A stretch of 44,869 bases of DNA from Caloramator sp. (GTDB lineage Bacteria > Bacillota > Clostridia > Clostridiales > Caloramatoraceae). Positions 35,574-44,869 of the stretch are shown here, one piece after another; position 1 is the stretch's first letter, and every line of letters starts with the position of its first letter. The DNA lies in NCBI GenBank assembly GCA_026418935.1, contig JAOAAJ010000034.1:1-44869 (forward strand), written 5' to 3'. A model generated the notes under the pieces. The model was not told the DNA's origin and searched no databases. It saw only the letters and a program-made list of their open reading frames with translations. The position numbers and the translations under genes were made by a program.

Positions 35574-35607
35574 AAAATAAAGAGGATGACTTAACATCCT
35601 CTTTATT
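35574..35607 (-). terminator. Terminator after the ECF S-component gene
   Basis: AATAAAGAGGATG (35576-35588) and CATCCTCTTTATT (35595-35607) form a perfect 13-bp stem with a 6-nt loop, including the stop codon of the upstream gene. On the minus strand TTTATTTTG follows. Confidence 0.85.
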
Positions 35608-36115
35608 GTTGATTTATTAATTTGAACTTTGTCTTTTTTATAGCCAGAATAACTGGTACTGATACAAAAGCACTTACTAATCCTTGAATTAAATCTCCTG
35701 TTATAAAAGATTCAAAGGCACCCGCATAGCCAGTCATAAAATAATTAAAAATAAAATATCCAGCCATCATCTCTGAAGCAGCAATAAGCCCAGCTATAAA
35801 TGTAGCAATCGTAGTTTCTTGTTTTAGTTTTTCATAAATCAATGCAAATAAAAGACCTTCAACACCTTTTATTACAAATGTTGCAGGTGCATAAATGAAA
35901 TATCCACCTAATAAATCTGCCAACATTGAACCTAATCCACCTGCTATAAAACCATATTTTCTTCCTAAAATTGCAGCAATAACAAAAATCATAATATCTC
36001 CAAAATTTGTATAACCTTTTACTGTTGGAATTCTTATAATCATTGTACATACAGTAACTAATGCAATGGCCATAGAAAGTGTCACGATTTTAGATACTTT
36101 TTGATTGTTATTCAA
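35603..36115 (-). CDS. ECF transporter S component, substrate unassigned
   Basis: A 170-residue integral membrane protein with five or six hydrophobic helices, of the substrate-binding (S) component type used by energy-coupling-factor vitamin transporters. The central motif GFIAGGLGSMLADLLGGYF followed by APATFVIKGVEGLLFALI is typical of the riboflavin/HmpT-like S-component families. No vitamin can be named from sequence, and there is no riboswitch in its leader. No EcfA or EcfT gene is in the window, so it probably shares a module encoded elsewhere. The longest frame runs to 36193 but overlaps the -35 element; AAAGGGGG points to the TTG at 36115. Confidence 0.82.
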   Translation of the reverse strand: MNNNQKVSKIVTLSMAIALVTVCTMIIRIPTVKGYTNFGDIMIFVIAAILGRKYGFIAGGLGSMLADLLGGYFIYAPATFVIKGVEGLLFALIYEKLKQETTIATFIAGLIAASEMMAGYFIFNYFMTGYAGAFESFITGDLIQGLVSAFVSVPVILAIKKTKFKLINQQ

Positions 36116-36172
36116 TTTAATTCCCCCTTTATAATTGTTTCGATACACTTTAAATATAATATATTTTTTTAT

Positions 36173-36200
36173 ATAATACACTTTTAATAACAATTGTCAA
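36173..36200 (-). promoter_or_regulatory. Promoter of the ECF S-component gene
   Basis: On the minus strand, TTGACA (36195-36200), a 16-bp spacer and TATTAT (36173-36178) lie about 58 bp before the TTG start. Two copies of AAAGTGTAT occur on the minus strand around and after the -10. Their meaning is unclear. Confidence 0.6.
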
Positions 36201-36270: not shown

Positions 36271-36307
36271 AGAAAAAAGCCTAAGGTTTTTCTCCTTAGG
36301 CTTTTTT
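36271..36307 (-). terminator. Terminator after the P-type ATPase gene
   Basis: AAAAAAGCCTAAGG (36273-36286) pairs with CCTTAGGCTTTTTT (36294-36307) in a 14-bp perfect stem with a 7-nt loop. The stem includes the end of the ATPase gene and ends in a U-rich tract on the minus strand. Confidence 0.85.
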
Positions 36308-38887
36308 TCTAAATAATTTTGCTATCTCAACTGCAATTAAAATGGAAATTGAGCAAATTGCCACAACTATTATTTGTTCTGAATTCAACAGTTCTATTTT
36401 AAATATTCTTCTTGTTAATGGAGTTATAAATACAACCATTTGAATTAGTAAAGATAGCAATACACCATAATTTAAATATTTATTACTAAACATATTATTA
36501 AAAATTACTGACCTACTATGGTATCTCACATTGAATGCATGGACTAATTGAGATAAACTCAATGTATAGAAGGCCATTGTTCTGGCTATATCCTCATTAA
36601 ATTTTTCTCCATACTTAAAGGCAATTAATGTTGCTATACCTATAAAAATTCCCTGTAAAATTATTCTAAATCCTAATCCCTTTGAGAAAAATCCCTCATC
36701 AGGATCTCTTGGTGGCTCTTGCATAACATTACTTTCTGGAATTTCCATTCCAAGTGCTAATGCAGGGAAGGTATCTGTAACCAAATTCACCCATAGTATG
36801 TGTATTGGTAGTAGCGGTTCAGCCCAGTTAAAAAGTGTTGCTATAAACAGAGTTAAAATCTCTCCAATATTACAGGATAATAAAAAGCTTATAGCTTTTC
36901 TTATATTCGAATAAATTGTTCTTCCTTCCTCTACAGCTGATACAATCGTAGCAAAATTATCATCAGTAAGTATTAAATCAGCTGCCTCTTTAGAAACGTC
37001 AGTTCCAGTTATCCCCATAGCTACTCCTATATTAGATTTTTTAAGTGCAGGTGCATCATTTACACCATCACCTGTCATTGCTACAATTTGACCATTTGCC
37101 TTCCACGCCTCAACTATTCTAACTTTATGTTCTGGTGATACTCTGGCATATACAGAATAATTCTTAACTTTTTCAACTAATTCGTCTTGTGGCATGTTTT
37201 CTAATTCTGCACCTGTTATTGCTTCATTATCATTTTTTAAAATACCTAATTCCTTTGCAATTGCAACTGCTGTTATTTTATGATCTCCAGTTATCATCAC
37301 AGGCTTAATACCAGCAGTTCTACACTTTTTAACAGCCTCCTTTGCTTCTTCTCTTGGTGGGTCTATCATACCAACTAACCCTACAAATATAAGATTCTTT
37401 TCTGCTTCATCTTTATTTATATTATCTACTGTTTTAAAAGCAAATGCTAATACTCTCAATGCCTCTTTTGCCATTTCTTCGTTTGCAGATTTTATCTTTT
37501 TAATATCATCTTCATTTATTTCTCTTATATTTTCACCGTCTAAAATATATGAACATCTTGATAACAGTACATCAGGTGCGCCTTTAACATTAATTTCTAA
37601 TTTATCTTCCACTTTATTAAATGTAGTCATTAGTTTTCTATCTGAATCAAATGGTATTTCATCTATTCTTGGATATTTCTTATCTAATTCTCTTTTATCT
37701 ATTGATACATTTAAAGAAAAGTCAATTAAAGCAGTTTCTGTCGGATCTCCTAATAGTTTAACCTTTCCTTTTTCTTCTACAATCTTTGTATCATTACAAA
37801 GATTAGCAATATGAAATAACTTATTAGCATCTACTATATCGTCTGCAAAAGCATTTGATGTATAAACTTTCTTTACAGTCATTTTGTTTTGTGTTAGAGT
37901 ACCAGTTTTATCAGAACAAATAACTGTCGCACAACCTAATGTTTCTACAGCAGGTAGTTTTCTAACAATAGCATTTTTCTTTATCATCTTTTGTACTCCA
38001 ACTGCAAGAACAATAGTAACAACTGCTGGAAGTCCCTCAGGTATTGCTGCAACAGCAAGGGATACCGATGTCATAAACATATTAAATACTTCTCTTCCTT
38101 CAAAAACACCTATTCCAAACATTATTCCACATATAGCAAGTGCTGATATACCCATCCACTTACCTGCTTCCTCAAGTTTTTCTTGTAGAGGAGTTTTTTC
38201 CTCTTCTACCTTAGCTATCATATCTGCAATTTTACCAATTTCTGTATTCATTCCAGTTTGTACAACCACGCCCAATCCTCTACCATAGGTTACCATAGAA
38301 GACATAAAAGCCATATTCCTTCTATCACCTATTGGTATATTATTTTCTACTAATGTTTCACTATTCTTATCTACAGGGACAGACTCACCAGTTAATGCAG
38401 CCTCCTCAATTTTTAAATTTGATGCTTCAATTAATCTTAAGTCAGCAGGAACATACTTACCAGCTTCAAGTACAACTATATCACCTGGAACTAACTCTCT
38501 TGCAGGTATTTCTTTAGATATTCCATCTCTAATAACATGTGCAAGAGGAGCAGCCATCTTTTTAAGAGCATTTAATGACTCCTCTGCTTTATTTTCTTGA
38601 ATAACACCTAAAACAGCATTTAATACCACAACTAACAAAATAATTACTGTATCTGCAGCCTCTCCTACAAGCCCTGATATAACTGCTGCTACTATTAATA
38701 TAATTACTAAAAAATCTTTAAACTGGTCTATAAATTTTTGAAAAGTCGTTTTTCCTTTTCTTTCCCTAAATTCATTGAAGCCATTTTTTTCAATTCTTTT
38801 TTTAGCCTCTTCATCCGATATACCCTTTTCTGTTGTTTTTAATTCATTAAAAAGTTCTTCCTTTGTTAAGTTGTAAAATTCTTTCAT
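36296..38887 (-). CDS. P-type cation-transporting ATPase, probable Mn2+/Ca2+ exporter
   Basis: An 863-residue P2A-type ATPase. It has an N-terminal cation ATPase domain, an actuator domain with the dephosphorylation motif EEAALTGESVP, and M4 with AAIPEGLPAVVTIVLAVGV. The phosphorylation site is CSDKTGTLTQNKMTV, and the hinge is MTGDGVNDAPALKKS. M6 holds NLVTDTFPALALGME, and ten membrane helices are expected. By homology alone it would be called a Ca2+ ATPase. However, the 5' leader is a yybP-ykoY riboswitch, a class that binds Mn2+, and Mn2+-inducible P-type ATPases are known in lactic acid bacteria and streptococci. Mn2+ export is therefore the better hypothesis, with Ca2+ transport still possible. 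It is a single-gene unit. AAAGGAGG precedes the ATG. Confidence 0.93.
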   Translation of the reverse strand: MKEFYNLTKEELFNELKTTEKGISDEEAKKRIEKNGFNEFRERKGKTTFQKFIDQFKDFLVIILIVAAVISGLVGEAADTVIILLVVVLNAVLGVIQENKAEESLNALKKMAAPLAHVIRDGISKEIPARELVPGDIVVLEAGKYVPADLRLIEASNLKIEEAALTGESVPVDKNSETLVENNIPIGDRRNMAFMSSMVTYGRGLGVVVQTGMNTEIGKIADMIAKVEEEKTPLQEKLEEAGKWMGISALAICGIMFGIGVFEGREVFNMFMTSVSLAVAAIPEGLPAVVTIVLAVGVQKMIKKNAIVRKLPAVETLGCATVICSDKTGTLTQNKMTVKKVYTSNAFADDIVDANKLFHIANLCNDTKIVEEKGKVKLLGDPTETALIDFSLNVSIDKRELDKKYPRIDEIPFDSDRKLMTTFNKVEDKLEINVKGAPDVLLSRCSYILDGENIREINEDDIKKIKSANEEMAKEALRVLAFAFKTVDNINKDEAEKNLIFVGLVGMIDPPREEAKEAVKKCRTAGIKPVMITGDHKITAVAIAKELGILKNDNEAITGAELENMPQDELVEKVKNYSVYARVSPEHKVRIVEAWKANGQIVAMTGDGVNDAPALKKSNIGVAMGITGTDVSKEAADLILTDDNFATIVSAVEEGRTIYSNIRKAISFLLSCNIGEILTLFIATLFNWAEPLLPIHILWVNLVTDTFPALALGMEIPESNVMQEPPRDPDEGFFSKGLGFRIILQGIFIGIATLIAFKYGEKFNEDIARTMAFYTLSLSQLVHAFNVRYHSRSVIFNNMFSNKYLNYGVLLSLLIQMVVFITPLTRRIFKIELLNSEQIIVVAICSISILIAVEIAKLFRKKA

Positions 38888-38917
38888 TGTCTATGACCTC
38901 CTTTATCATTATTATTA

Positions 38918-38961
38918 CAAAACAAAAAGACCTTTATCCATTTTTATATGGATAAAGGTCT
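38918..38961 (-). terminator. Riboswitch-controlled terminator before the P-type ATPase
   Basis: AGACCTTTATCCAT (38928-38941) and ATGGATAAAGGTCT (38948-38961) form a perfect 14-bp stem with a 6-nt loop, followed by TTTTGTTTTG on the minus strand. Its 5' arm contains CCTTTAT, which also closes the aptamer's P1 stem. Aptamer folding and termination therefore exclude each other. Confidence 0.88.
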
Positions 38962-39051
38962 TACTCACAAGCAATGCTTGTTAACCAACCGGGCATTTGC
39001 CGCGATGACGATTGGTTATACTCTAATGAGTCGAGTTACTCCCCTTTATAG
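38948..39051 (-). ncRNA. yybP-ykoY (Mn2+) riboswitch
   Basis: The minus-strand leader of the P-type ATPase gene has the hallmarks of this class. The 5' strand is AAAGGGGAGTA, the core contains CGTCAT and CCGG, and the 3' strand is GTAAGACCTTT, close to the lactococcal yybP aptamer. Three helices branch from P1: ACTC/GAGT, AACCAA/TTGGTT with an inner GGC-AAAT-GCC, and ACAAGC/GCTTGT. P1 pairs ATAAAGG with CCTTTAT, the same bases used by the terminator. Ligand binding should stabilise P1, break the terminator and turn the gene on. The Mn2+ ligand is known for the class; its action here is inferred. Confidence 0.93.
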
Positions 39052-39054
39052 GAA

Positions 39055-39083
39055 ATTTTATACCCTTTAATTGTTATTGTCAA
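39055..39083 (-). promoter_or_regulatory. Promoter of the riboswitch-ATPase transcript
   Basis: On the minus strand, TTGACA (39078-39083), a 17-bp spacer and TAAAAT (39055-39060) immediately precede the aptamer. The -35 is inside the last codons of the TVP38-family gene. Confidence 0.65.
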
Positions 39084-39753
39084 TATCTGAAAGTAAACTT
39101 TTTACAACTTGTTCATTATTTTTGTTTCCCTTATGTTGGATTTTTAATAATAAAGGAATTAATGAAAGAAGTATAATCATAACAACTGAAAATATAAATT
39201 GTCTTGAATAAATATTATTTAAAGAACTACCAAAATTACTATATATAAACGTTCCAGGTATAATACCCAAAAATGAAGCTAATGTATATTTAATAATATT
39301 TATTCTTGATAATCCACATATATAACTAACAACATCACAGGGTAGAATAGGTATAACCCTCATTAAAAATGTTATCTTAAAAGCATTTCTTTCATCAAAG
39401 GAATACTTTTTAATTTTATCTCCAAAATACCTTTCAAAAAAATCCGCACCTAAAAACCAAGATATATAATATGCAATTATTGAACCAACAGTACTACCTA
39501 AAACTGTAAGTACCGTTCCCTTTACAGAACCAAATAATATTCCTCCAAGAACTGAAAATAGGCCTATTGGTAATAATAGTATAGGTCTTAATATACATAA
39601 TAGAAAAAATATAAAAGGAGCGAGCTTCCCATAAGAAGTAACTAAAAGTTTAACATCATTTAAATTATATAAATGAAACTTAATAACTATAATCGTAATT
39701 AAAGTTAAAAATGAAGTTAAAATTATAAATTTTAAATTTCCTAACCTATACAT
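39067..39753 (-). CDS. TVP38/TMEM64 family (DedA-like) membrane protein
   Basis: A 228-residue integral membrane protein with about five or six hydrophobic segments, of the TVP38/TMEM64/VTT (formerly SNARE-associated) family, related to DedA. Recognisable blocks are RPILLLPIGLFSVLGGILFG, GSTVGSIIAYYISWFLGADFFERYF, and FLMRVIPILPCDVVSYICGL with the conserved arginine and proline. The basic C-terminal tail is cytosolic. Family members are implicated in lipid scrambling and membrane homeostasis; the role here is unknown. The start codon overlaps the stop of a 54-codon gene (TAATG), so the two are coupled. Its last codons hold the promoter of the Mn2+-responsive ATPase. Confidence 0.88.
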   Translation of the reverse strand: MYRLGNLKFIILTSFLTLITIIVIKFHLYNLNDVKLLVTSYGKLAPFIFFLLCILRPILLLPIGLFSVLGGILFGSVKGTVLTVLGSTVGSIIAYYISWFLGADFFERYFGDKIKKYSFDERNAFKITFLMRVIPILPCDVVSYICGLSRINIIKYTLASFLGIIPGTFIYSNFGSSLNNIYSRQFIFSVVMIILLSLIPLLLKIQHKGNKNNEQVVKSLLSDIDNNN

Positions 39754-42962: not shown

Positions 42963-43059
42963 TGGCGGGAGTATGTGGGAATCGAACCCACCCAACGGGT
43001 TATTAGCCCGTCAACTCGGTTTTGAAGACCGGTAGGCACACCAGCACCTATCTACCCCC
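42963..43059 (-). tRNA. selC: tRNA-Sec (anticodon TCA)
   Basis: A 97-nt tRNA with encoded CCA. The anticodon is TCA (43023-43025) in the loop CTTCAAA. The acceptor stem is long (GGGGGTAG against ATACTCCC), as is usual for bacterial tRNA-Sec. The variable arm is long (ACGGG paired with CCCGT), and the T arm is GTGGG-TTCGATT-CCCAC. It has its own promoter and terminator and lies just after selB. It reads UGA as selenocysteine together with SelB. Confidence 0.95.
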
Positions 43060-43129: not shown

Positions 43130-44869
43130 TCAATAAAGCACCCTTTTATCTTCTATTCTTTTAGTAAATTTTATTGAGTCTAAATATTCCAAAATCATCA
43201 CGGCATATTTTCTATTAATTTGCAGTTGATCTCTAAATTCCGCAGTGGTAATTTCACCTTTATTTACTATATAATCCATAATCCAACTTTTAATATAATC
43301 TATTTTTTCTTTCAAAATACAATATTCATTATCAATTTTTATTAAAACTTCATCCTCTATTAATAAATCTAATATTTTTTTTGCCGTCTCCTTCTCTCTC
43401 CCAAAATTATTAAGTATAGTCTCTATTTTTGGTGGCATTAAATTTGCTCTGTTTAACTCATCTAATATTTTATCCTTTATCTCTGTTTGTCTTTTATTAA
43501 ATTTTACCTGAAAACCTTTAAGTTTTACATATTTTGTTTTTATATCAATTGTATCCTCTTGTAGTATATTAAATAGTATTTCTACTAACTTAGGTCTTTT
43601 TTCTTGTTCTAATAATTTGCTCTTAAATTCTTCTTTATTCATACCATTATTTAAAGGATTTTTATTGTTATACTCTTTTAATATTTCTTCTGCATCTTCT
43701 TTTAATTTTTTCACATACAAGTTATGAACATAAATTTTTTCACTTCCTATATCCAATAAATAAACTTTATTTGTAGTACATAAATTATCAATAATTTTTT
43801 CTATATTTTCTATACCTTTACCAGCCAATTTTTTTATTTCATCTAAATTAGGAAAATCTTTACTGTGTTGTTCGATAGTCTTTTCTATCAATTCTTCTAC
43901 GCTACCTTCTTCTTTAATTAATAATTCTTCTATTACTTTAATATCTCCAATCTTGTGTTTTTTTGCATTTGGTTCTAATATTGTACCTCCCCCTATTGTA
44001 ATCATAGGAGAGTATGTTCTAATAATAAATTTATCTCCTCTTCTTGCCGCTATTGGTTCTTCTAATCTAAATTGAACTAATGCAGTATCTCCTGGTTCTA
44101 ATTCTTCTCTATCTAATAATATTACTCTTCCAATAATCTCTTTTGTACCGTGATATAATTTTATTCTATCTCTATTTTTTAGTTTTTTACCTGCATCCTC
44201 TAAATAATTTAATCTACAATCAATCATCAGAGAATTTTCCAAACTTCCTACCCTTGCAACAACATCTCCTCTTTCTATATCATCCTTTTTGACACCCGAA
44301 ATATTTATTGCTACTCTTTGGCCTGCAAAGGCTGTTTTTACATCTTTTTCATGTACTTGTAAATTTCTTATTTTTCCCCTAATCCCCTTTGTATATATCT
44401 CACATTCTTGTCCAACTGTAATGCTTCCTGAAATTAGTGTTCCTGTAACAACAGTACCAAATCCCTGTACAGTAAAGGATCTATCAACTGGTAGCCTAAA
44501 ATCTGTTGCTAAATCTCTTTCACTTATTTCTTTAGTTAACCTATCAATAGTATTAACAAGAATATCAAGCCCTTGTCTTTTAGTTGAAGATACAGGAACT
44601 ATAGGTGAATCTTTAAAAGGAGTAGACTTTAAAAATTCTCTTATGTCATCTATAATAAATTGAAGCCATTCTTTATCAACCAAATCAATTTTTGTTATAA
44701 CAACAATTCCTTTTTTTATATCAAGTAACTTCAAAATATTTAGATGTTCCCTTGTTTGTGGCATAATTCCTTCATCTGCAGCAATTACAAGTAGAAAAAT
44801 ATCAATTCCACTTACACCTGCCAACATATTTTTTATAAACTTTTCATGACCAGGAACATCAACTATACC
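43130..44869 (-). CDS. selB: Selenocysteine-specific elongation factor SelB (5' end missing)
   Basis: GTPase that delivers Sec-tRNA to ribosomes stalled at a UGA with a SECIS hairpin. The frame continues to the right edge of the window, where it reads GIVDVPGHEKFIKN, so the true start lies outside and 580 residues are visible. The G3 motif DVPGHE and G4 motif ITKIDLVD are present; G1 is off the window. Domains II and III follow, then four C-terminal winged helices (the last ending MILEYLDSIKFTKRIEDKR) that bind SECIS RNA and separate SelB from EF-Tu. It is followed by tRNA-Sec, the usual selB-selC neighbourhood. selA and selD may lie beyond the edge. Confidence 0.96.
   Translation of the reverse strand, partial: GIVDVPGHEKFIKNMLAGVSGIDIFLLVIAADEGIMPQTREHLNILKLLDIKKGIVVITKIDLVDKEWLQFIIDDIREFLKSTPFKDSPIVPVSSTKRQGLDILVNTIDRLTKEISERDLATDFRLPVDRSFTVQGFGTVVTGTLISGSITVGQECEIYTKGIRGKIRNLQVHEKDVKTAFAGQRVAINISGVKKDDIERGDVVARVGSLENSLMIDCRLNYLEDAGKKLKNRDRIKLYHGTKEIIGRVILLDREELEPGDTALVQFRLEEPIAARRGDKFIIRTYSPMITIGGGTILEPNAKKHKIGDIKVIEELLIKEEGSVEELIEKTIEQHSKDFPNLDEIKKLAGKGIENIEKIIDNLCTTNKVYLLDIGSEKIYVHNLYVKKLKEDAEEILKEYNNKNPLNNGMNKEEFKSKLLEQEKRPKLVEILFNILQEDTIDIKTKYVKLKGFQVKFNKRQTEIKDKILDELNRANLMPPKIETILNNFGREKETAKKILDLLIEDEVLIKIDNEYCILKEKIDYIKSWIMDYIVNKGEITTAEFRDQLQINRKYAVMILEYLDSIKFTKRIEDKRVLY

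Follow-up and report, generated by a model that had tools for sequence, protein, structure and literature searches.

A predicted Mn2+-responsive ON riboswitch of the yybP-ykoY class ahead of a P2A-type ATPase gene in Caloramator sp.

Introduction

The closest described counterpart of the element reported here is the yoaB switch of L. lactis (PDB 4Y1I), whose metal site comprises G9, U39, C40, A41, U44 and C45, the N7 of A41 providing the Mn2+-specific contact (PMC9190785). X. oryzae has ACA48UACU in place of the L. lactis UCA41AUUC, and its Mn2+-specific adenosine is A48 (PMC6754395). The L. lactis switch is described as an ON switch in which P1.1 is set against the terminator (PMC11087558). 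It precedes the gene for YoaB, a P-type ATPase orthologous to the one considered below and credited with protecting L. lactis against toxic Mn2+ (PMC11477304). The same review labels the whole class OFF switches and describes a C. difficile Mn2+ riboswitch before CD2503; by that description it matches our element in class, in lying in the Clostridia and in the kind of gene that follows, a cation-translocating P-type ATPase. The switch class, its ON mechanism and its linkage to P-type ATPases are therefore already in print (PMC9190785, PMC11087558, PMC6754395, PMC11477304).

The Caloramator element extends this known kind of switch; what it adds concerns the many switches that fall below the threshold of the Rfam model RF00080 and a lead on the type of pump that they control. 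Going by their titles, papers of Price (2015), Dambach (2015) and Martin (2019) are said to treat the class and its ATPase linkage. The last of these (Martin et al., NAR) reportedly deals with a riboswitch-activated Mn2+/Ca2+ ATPase in Streptococcus, which resembles the present locus by title alone. The literature found on Caloramator and riboswitches had histidine regulation as its sole topic, and no title or abstract opening in the RF00080 literature, PMC3766115 included, was about missed members.

Results and Discussion

Organization of the locus

The window, the whole 44,869-nucleotide stretch analysed here, comes from a 2.0 Mb genome assembled in 134 contigs. The original prediction had described a promoter, a yybP-ykoY aptamer and a terminator ahead of a P-type ATPase gene; all were found on the minus strand from the sequence and a promoter/terminator scan, and the features are as follows.

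39055..39083, minus strand: sigma-70-type promoter, TTGACA-17-TAAAAT, 11/12 consensus positions
39083-39078, minus strand: promoter -35 box TTGACA, within the final codons of the upstream VTT-domain gene
39060-39055, minus strand: promoter -10 box TAAAAT
about 38950..39051, minus strand: predicted yybP-ykoY (Mn2+ riboswitch) aptamer, L. lactis type, four-way junction P1/P2/P3/P4 (alignment, covariation, covariance model, fold)
39043..39049, minus strand: 5' strand of the P1.1 switch helix, AUAAAGG (alignment and pair counts)
39037..39042, minus strand: L1 loop GGAGUA, the metal-site loop, invariant (14/14 rows)
39002..39011, minus strand: 5' side of the L3 loop, UCGUCAUCGC (alignment)
38989..38991, minus strand: 3' side of the L3 loop, CGG, invariant (14/14 rows)
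38952..38958, minus strand: 3' strand of the P1.1 switch helix, CCUUUAU, common to the terminator (sequence)
38927..38962, minus strand: intrinsic terminator AAGACCUUUAUCCAU-AUAAAA-AUGGAUAAAGGUCUU, mutually exclusive with P1.1
38926-38917, minus strand: U-rich tail of the terminator
38897..38904, minus strand: ribosome-binding site AAAGGAGG (sequence)
36296..38887, minus strand: regulated gene, P2A-type (SERCA/PMR1-like) cation-transporting ATPase, 863 aa, start codon at 38887

The aptamer sequence is AAAGGGGAGUA...UCGUCA...GAGUAAGACCUUUAU (about 39051-38950), and its motifs follow one another along the leader as AUAAAGG-GGAGUA-...-UCGUCAUCGC-...-CGG-...-GAGUAAGA-CCUUUAU, after which comes the terminator. 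The promoter scored highest among the 6 promoter-like sites in 801 scanned bases; as chance alone would give 4.2 such sites at a looser threshold, the call rests on its score and its place. A similar promoter is present in the sequence of a Caloramator relative (L010). The terminator (38962-38927) has 15 pairs followed by a U tract, one such structure being found against 0.1 expected. The leader folds at -47.6 kcal/mol, compared with -24.9 +/- 3.4 for shuffled sequences (z -6.66), and the aptamer, when folded freely, forms a junction with P2, P3 and P4.

Directly upstream, and overlapping the -35 box, lies a gene for a VTT-domain (DedA/TVP38-like) membrane protein (39067-39753, minus strand). 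About 100 bases past the ATPase gene is that of an ECF transporter S component with a riboflavin-type Pfam match (35603-36193, minus strand), which is perhaps part of the ATPase transcript.

Switch mechanism and polarity

The stretch CCTTTAT, proposed from the outset to be both the 3' strand of P1 and the 5' arm of the terminator, was located at 38958-38952 in P1.1, where it takes part in two mutually exclusive pairings. Since the P1.1 3' strand sits inside the terminator 5' arm, ligand very probably turns the switch ON. At 37 C the terminator state (-47.6 kcal/mol) lies 12.2 kcal/mol below the P1.1 state (-35.4 kcal/mol), yet a transcript ending with the aptamer has P1.1 in its best fold at 37, 50 and 60 C. 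The choice would therefore be made during transcription, termination being the default unless the aptamer is held, which again argues for ON. In relatives, the P1.1 3' strand forms a terminator arm in 148 of the 150 distinct matches listed, a proportion to be read against the high background of such overlap (28% of other 8-mers of the same leaders, 21% of shuffled arms).

RNA polymerase would start near the P1.1 5' strand, and the nascent leader would fold into the four-way-junction aptamer, with L1 (GGAGUA) and L3 (UCGUCA...CGG) docking around metal ions. Mn2+ filling the site beneath the conserved L3 adenosine would keep P1.1 (AUAAAGG/CCUUUAU) shut and so deny CCUUUAU to the terminator, allowing the P2A ATPase gene to be read; without Mn2+ the stabler terminator would form and transcription would stop. 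The pump would then remove Mn2+, possibly along with Ca2+.

The yybP-ykoY class and the ON polarity, both part of the original prediction, are supported by homology, by covariation and by the published L. lactis mechanism (PMC9190785, PMC11087558). The OFF label of the review (PMC11477304) disagrees with what the L. lactis papers report, and the anatomy of the present leader says ON. We give a transcriptional ON riboswitch of the yybP-ykoY (Mn2+) class a probability of about 0.83, class, ligand and polarity taken jointly, the ligand, the docking and the polarity being predicted by analogy with the L. lactis and X. oryzae work.

Covariation of the helices

The very stable terminator is what a constitutive attenuator, or a simple terminator devoid of a ligand-binding aptamer, would also display, and the best Rfam match of the stretch is to the FourU thermometer (19.6 bits, gathering score 60, E 0.12). 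Either possibility is exceedingly improbable in view of the covariation in P1 and P3 and of the invariant L1 and L3 motifs. The thermometer was rejected as a candidate, its weak match spanning P4 and the terminator hairpin (38983-38919) and missing the ribosome-binding site.

Covariation was observed directly in alignments of related leaders. In 13 distinct leaders with a UCGUCA-type L3, standard pairs make up 95.2% of the paired cells, and 10 pairs (38 cells) are changed on both sides compared with at most 2 after sliding the partner columns. The counts cover P1.1, P1.2, P3a and P3b; the double-changed pairs fall in P1.1 (2), P1.2 (3) and P3a (5), P3b being invariant in this set and hence uninformative. 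A wider set of 19 leaders, which adds the genome's own GDT1 leader and leaders of the UCAACA type, has 86.6% standard cells and 17 pairs (70 cells) changed on both sides, against at most 12 pairs (22 cells) after sliding. In a shuffling control, four of five covariation measures were reached in 0/500 shuffles, while the fifth, further pair types, was reached in 478/500 and 49/500 for the two sets. The L1 motif GGAGUA together with the preceding G (GGGGAGUA in the L1 test) is invariant in 19/19 rows. Compensatory change thus supports P1 and P3 as real helices. In the alignment, Thermoanaerobacter-type aptamers (L015, L016, L060, L069) apparently lack P2, which would leave a three-way junction.

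Covariance models and homology

A search with the Rfam yybP-ykoY model had been put forward as a check on the class, and here the prediction found no support: RF00080 (Rfam 15) did not match the element at the gathering score (45 bits), nor at E<=10 in a 241-base stretch, and a whole-genome search at E<=10 gave nothing at its place. The sole match over the cut-off in the genome is a second switch, L001 (C16:18501-18631, 50.2 bits), which precedes the gene for a GDT1/TMEM165-type antiporter. It has the same L1, the same P1/P3 plan and the same overlap of P1.1 with a terminator as the window element, and differs in its L3, UCAACAUACU/UGG there and UCGUCAUCGC/CGG here, and in being detected by RF00080.

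The behaviour of RF00080 on related sequences bears on how its miss is to be read. Of 18 related ATPase leaders carrying these motifs (16 motif-bearing ATPase loci of 63, and 2 from a DNA-pattern search), none reached the cut-off. At E<=0.01, the model matched E. coli, B. subtilis and Caulobacter only among 14 control genomes; the L. lactis control genome had no match at that level and a weak one somewhere in its sequence at E<=10 only. Among the listed matches in relatives of a second model, R1 (below), RF00080 scored over its cut-off in 0/51 of the UCGUCA type and 16/96 of the UCAACA type. The candidate reading of the miss as a refutation of the switch was rejected on these grounds, namely the failure of the model on the L. 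lactis control at E<=0.01 and on all 51 UCGUCA-type matches listed; as RF00080 is insensitive to such leaders, the class was judged by homology and covariation. The structure line of RF00080, as seen on L001:1501-1631, is without a P1 helix, runs to 177 columns and has a late segment paired across the terminator region. This P1-less consensus with cross-terminator pairing may explain the low sensitivity, and we regard the miss as a property of the model copy rather than as a defining biological feature.

Homology was assessed with covariance models of our own. Model R3 was made from ten UCGUCA-type ATPase leaders of other genera and contains neither a Caloramator sequence nor L001. In the window at E<=10 its single match is the element (78.7 bits, E 1.6e-18), and it also finds L001 (45.3 bits, E 9.1e-10). 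As one model holding neither sequence detects both the element and the RF00080-accepted L001, the element is homologous to members that RF00080 accepts. Model R2 (10 pairs) gave 62.4 bits on the element; its automatic structure missed P3, and it is free of any Caloramator ATPase leader but includes L001 from the same genome, so that it is no clean hold-out and R3 was used instead. R1, which includes the window sequence, gave 92.7 bits; it was built mostly from ATPase leaders, with E-values as its only control against decoys.

Metal site

At the metal site the window reads U-C-A-U-C-G-C. Placed by motif, and compared with yoaB by published bases only, the listed L. lactis site bases are the same in the window except U44, which is a G here; the shared features of the two switches thus comprise the L3 UCA with the sensing adenosine, the metal-site bases bar one, the P1.1/terminator overlap, the ON polarity and the downstream ATPase gene (PMC9190785, PMC11087558, PMC6754395, PMC11477304). 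By motif, the Mn2+-sensing A41 corresponds to the A at 39006, and the L3 hexamer ends in CA in 155/156 aligned matches.

At the U44 place, the 50 relatives with a 10-nucleotide L3 of the UCGUCA type have mostly A (39), followed by U (6), G (4) and C (1). The G at this place in the window could alter the metal preference. That the base is a purine in 43 of these 50 relatives, and that the downstream gene is annotated in a Ca2+ pump family, would fit a switch of the yybP-ykoY fold whose preference has moved, for instance to Ca2+ or some other divalent ion, in keeping with a Ca2+ pump. We consider such a shift improbable. The Mn2+-specific adenosine (A41 in L. lactis, A48 in X. oryzae) is kept in the window, and U44 is not required, as X. 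oryzae has C51 there and still senses Mn2+ (PMC6754395). Moreover, A at the U44 place also occurs beyond the pumps, before 4 HtpX-like, 4 CitMHS/ArsB-like and 2 Na_Ca_ex genes. Both kinds of L3 sense Mn2+ elsewhere, and by analogy Mn2+ is the probable ligand here too, the G adding a small uncertainty.

Distribution and linked genes

A scan of named genomes yielded 63 loci with the ATPase, and the element lies upstream in 16 of them, including loci of Caloramator, Thermoanaerobacter, Clostridium, Eremococcus and Aerococcus; the remaining 47 are mostly Neobacillus and Bacillus pumps. The first DNA pattern hit 2/147 genomes, a figure that does not measure frequency, and failed on the window, where the gap is 2 bases shorter than the minimum it allowed.

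R1 at E<=0.01 matched 93/147 relatives, compared with 71/147 for RF00080 at the same E-value and 16/147 over the RF00080 cut-off. In 398 genomes drawn from the phylum, R1 at E<=0.001 matched 204, and RF00080 matched 63 at E<=0.001 and 9 over the cut-off. Stricter filters were used in these many-genome scans, in which some misses may be filter losses. The 150 R1 matches listed for the relatives come from 92 genomes and are the basis of the gene counts; by L3 they divide into 51 of the UCGUCA (or CCGUCA) type, 96 of the UCAACA type and 3 others. For 65 of the 150 there is an overlapping RF00080 match at E<=0.01, over the cut-off in 16, and among the ATPase switches listed 64/80 have no RF00080 match at E<=0.01. 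Mn2+ switches would thus seem to be undercounted in RF00080 scans. R1 is incomplete too, as 21 of 86 RF00080 rows (E<=0.01, 147 relatives) overlap no listed R1 match and 11 of 71 RF00080 genomes are without one. In the phylum sample, with the lists compared by eye, 59 of the 63 RF00080 genomes also match R1 and 4 do not.

Linkage to such ATPases is recurrent. Taking as the downstream gene the longest frame starting within 700 bases, the 150 listed matches precede 80 P-type ATPase, 34 GDT1, 8 MntP, 7 Na_Ca_ex, 5 CitMHS/ArsB-like, 4 M48 (HtpX-like), 3 OAD_beta, 3 Zn_peptidase_2, 2 TerC, 1 MntR-like and 1 lactate-dehydrogenase-like gene, and 2 without a family. The shares are biased by the origin of R1 mostly in ATPase leaders; labels were checked in Pfam for one member of each of ten clusters, those of HtpX and lactate dehydrogenase being given by eye. 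Among the matches listed, all 34 GDT1 and all 8 MntP switches are of the UCAACA type, and the UCGUCA type is divided among 40 ATPase, 5 CitMHS/ArsB-like, 4 M48 and 2 Na_Ca_ex genes.

Both an ATPase switch and a GDT1 switch occur in 21 of the 92 genomes, 17 of these with UCGUCA at the ATPase (among the matches listed). Two Mn2+ switches in one cell, one at a GDT1 antiporter and one at an ATPase, may serve different thresholds or metal preferences. We advance only tentatively, and doubt that it will hold in every part, the joint picture of a widespread, mostly P2A-linked UCGUCA branch nearly invisible to RF00080, of two-switch cells, and of switched TD[S/T] pumps set against a TDG clade of Ca2+ pumps.

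Some R1 matches precede genes whose products are not obvious Mn exporters: an M48 (HtpX-like) protease (L163:61-167), a Zn_peptidase_2 protein (L243:1701-1795), the oxaloacetate decarboxylase beta subunit (L141:1701-1802) and a CitMHS/ArsB-like transporter (L237:1701-1812). Another, with an L3 of UCGACA (L218:61-166, plus strand), is followed by a DtxR/MntR-type regulator gene (217-630), apparently a Mn2+ switch ahead of the gene for a metal-dependent repressor.

The pump and its choice of metal

The regulated ATPase scores 707.6 against the SERCA-type family TIGR01116, over the cut-off of 703.4, and 794.4 against the PMR1-type family TIGR01522, just under the cut-off of 798.3. It has the Pfam domains E1-E2_ATPase, Cation_ATPase_N and Cation_ATPase_C and is 91% identical to its Caloramator proteoclasticus counterpart; the closest chains of solved structure belong to the Listeria Ca2+ ATPase (E 1.1e-236) and to human SPCA1. 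The same genome encodes a second P2A ATPase (contig C102), of the TDG type, with G after the M6 Asp, and its upstream DNA has no R1 match.

A G after the M6 Asp is found in 0/69 riboswitch-linked ATPases compared with 65/101 unlinked ones (170 sequences of enough length, near-copies kept and four short rows dropped; 80 of 120 listed ATPase places without loci were sampled, by a rule that drops every third). On a FastTree tree, which warned of long branches, built from 129 rows out of the 170 (34 of the 40 unlinked Neobacillus/Bacillus-type rows and 7 near-copies dropped), the TDG state changes once, and the TDG clade, including the genome's own paralogue, has a switch in 0/30 rows. Switch presence changes 12 times, gains and losses taken together, always on the non-TDG side. 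A row counts as switch-free here if R1 gave no match at E<=0.1 in an upstream stretch of as a rule at least 450 bases, fewer at contig ends (L332), and L018 was labelled UCGUCA for the tree from its P2 sequence where alignment A2 has UCAACA.

A rule by which a residue other than G after the M6 Asp would denote a Mn2+ pump was considered and rejected, given the single change on the tree, the 36 unlinked ATPases that are also without G and the S of the Listeria Ca2+ ATPase. The residue would seem to mark a clade, with no evident say in the choice of metal. The residue five after the M6 Asp, which we take to be the place of PMR1 Gln783, did not separate linked from unlinked groups in the order sample. 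The position of the pump on the tree, opposite the switch-free TDG clade, does place it on the side of the family that has repeatedly come under Mn2+ switches, and Mn2+ export by the pump is the likelier prediction. The switch and the named homologues are the basis for the predicted Mn2+ transport, and nothing in the pump's own sequence proves it; a double Mn2+/Ca2+ role and a role in Mn2+ alone appear equally likely.

The leader might also be a Mn2+-sensing switch as proposed above and the enzyme a Ca2+ pump that relieves Mn2+ stress indirectly. Its M5 retains the SERCA N-x-x-E (CNIGE), and the nearest solved structures are named calcium-transporting ATPases. This is nevertheless unlikely when set against the recurrence of the Mn2+ aptamer among ATPases, with its 12 changes on the tree, and the presence of the same aptamer class before MntP and further families connected with Mn export. 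The Streptococcus homologue is reportedly titled a Mn2+/Ca2+ ATPase (Martin 2019), and the switch-free TDG-type paralogue of the genome would be the more natural Ca2+ pump. With Mn2+ export as the preferred prediction, one 'calcium pump' annotation shifts towards manganese homeostasis, and riboswitch-linked and TDG-type pumps offer pairs for testing the determinants of Mn2+ versus Ca2+ in P2A ATPases.

An Fe_dep_repr_C (MntR/DtxR) domain was absent at E<=0.001 in 5/5 genomes of the genus, of which three have a completeness of 90% or more and low contamination, and no Nramp importer was found in the genome of the window. On this basis much of the Mn2+ control may fall to RNA switches, the regulators covered by the search being those of the MntR/DtxR type.

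Two further observations concern the relatives and the window. R1 matches occur in pairs on the same strand, about 160 to 1600 bases apart, at L178, L187, L190, L221, L249 and L250, and are possible tandem Mn2+ switches. In the window, a tRNA-Sec gene (42967-43059, minus strand, 68.4 bits) adjoins SelB (43130-44827, minus strand), and the host should accordingly be capable of selenoprotein synthesis.
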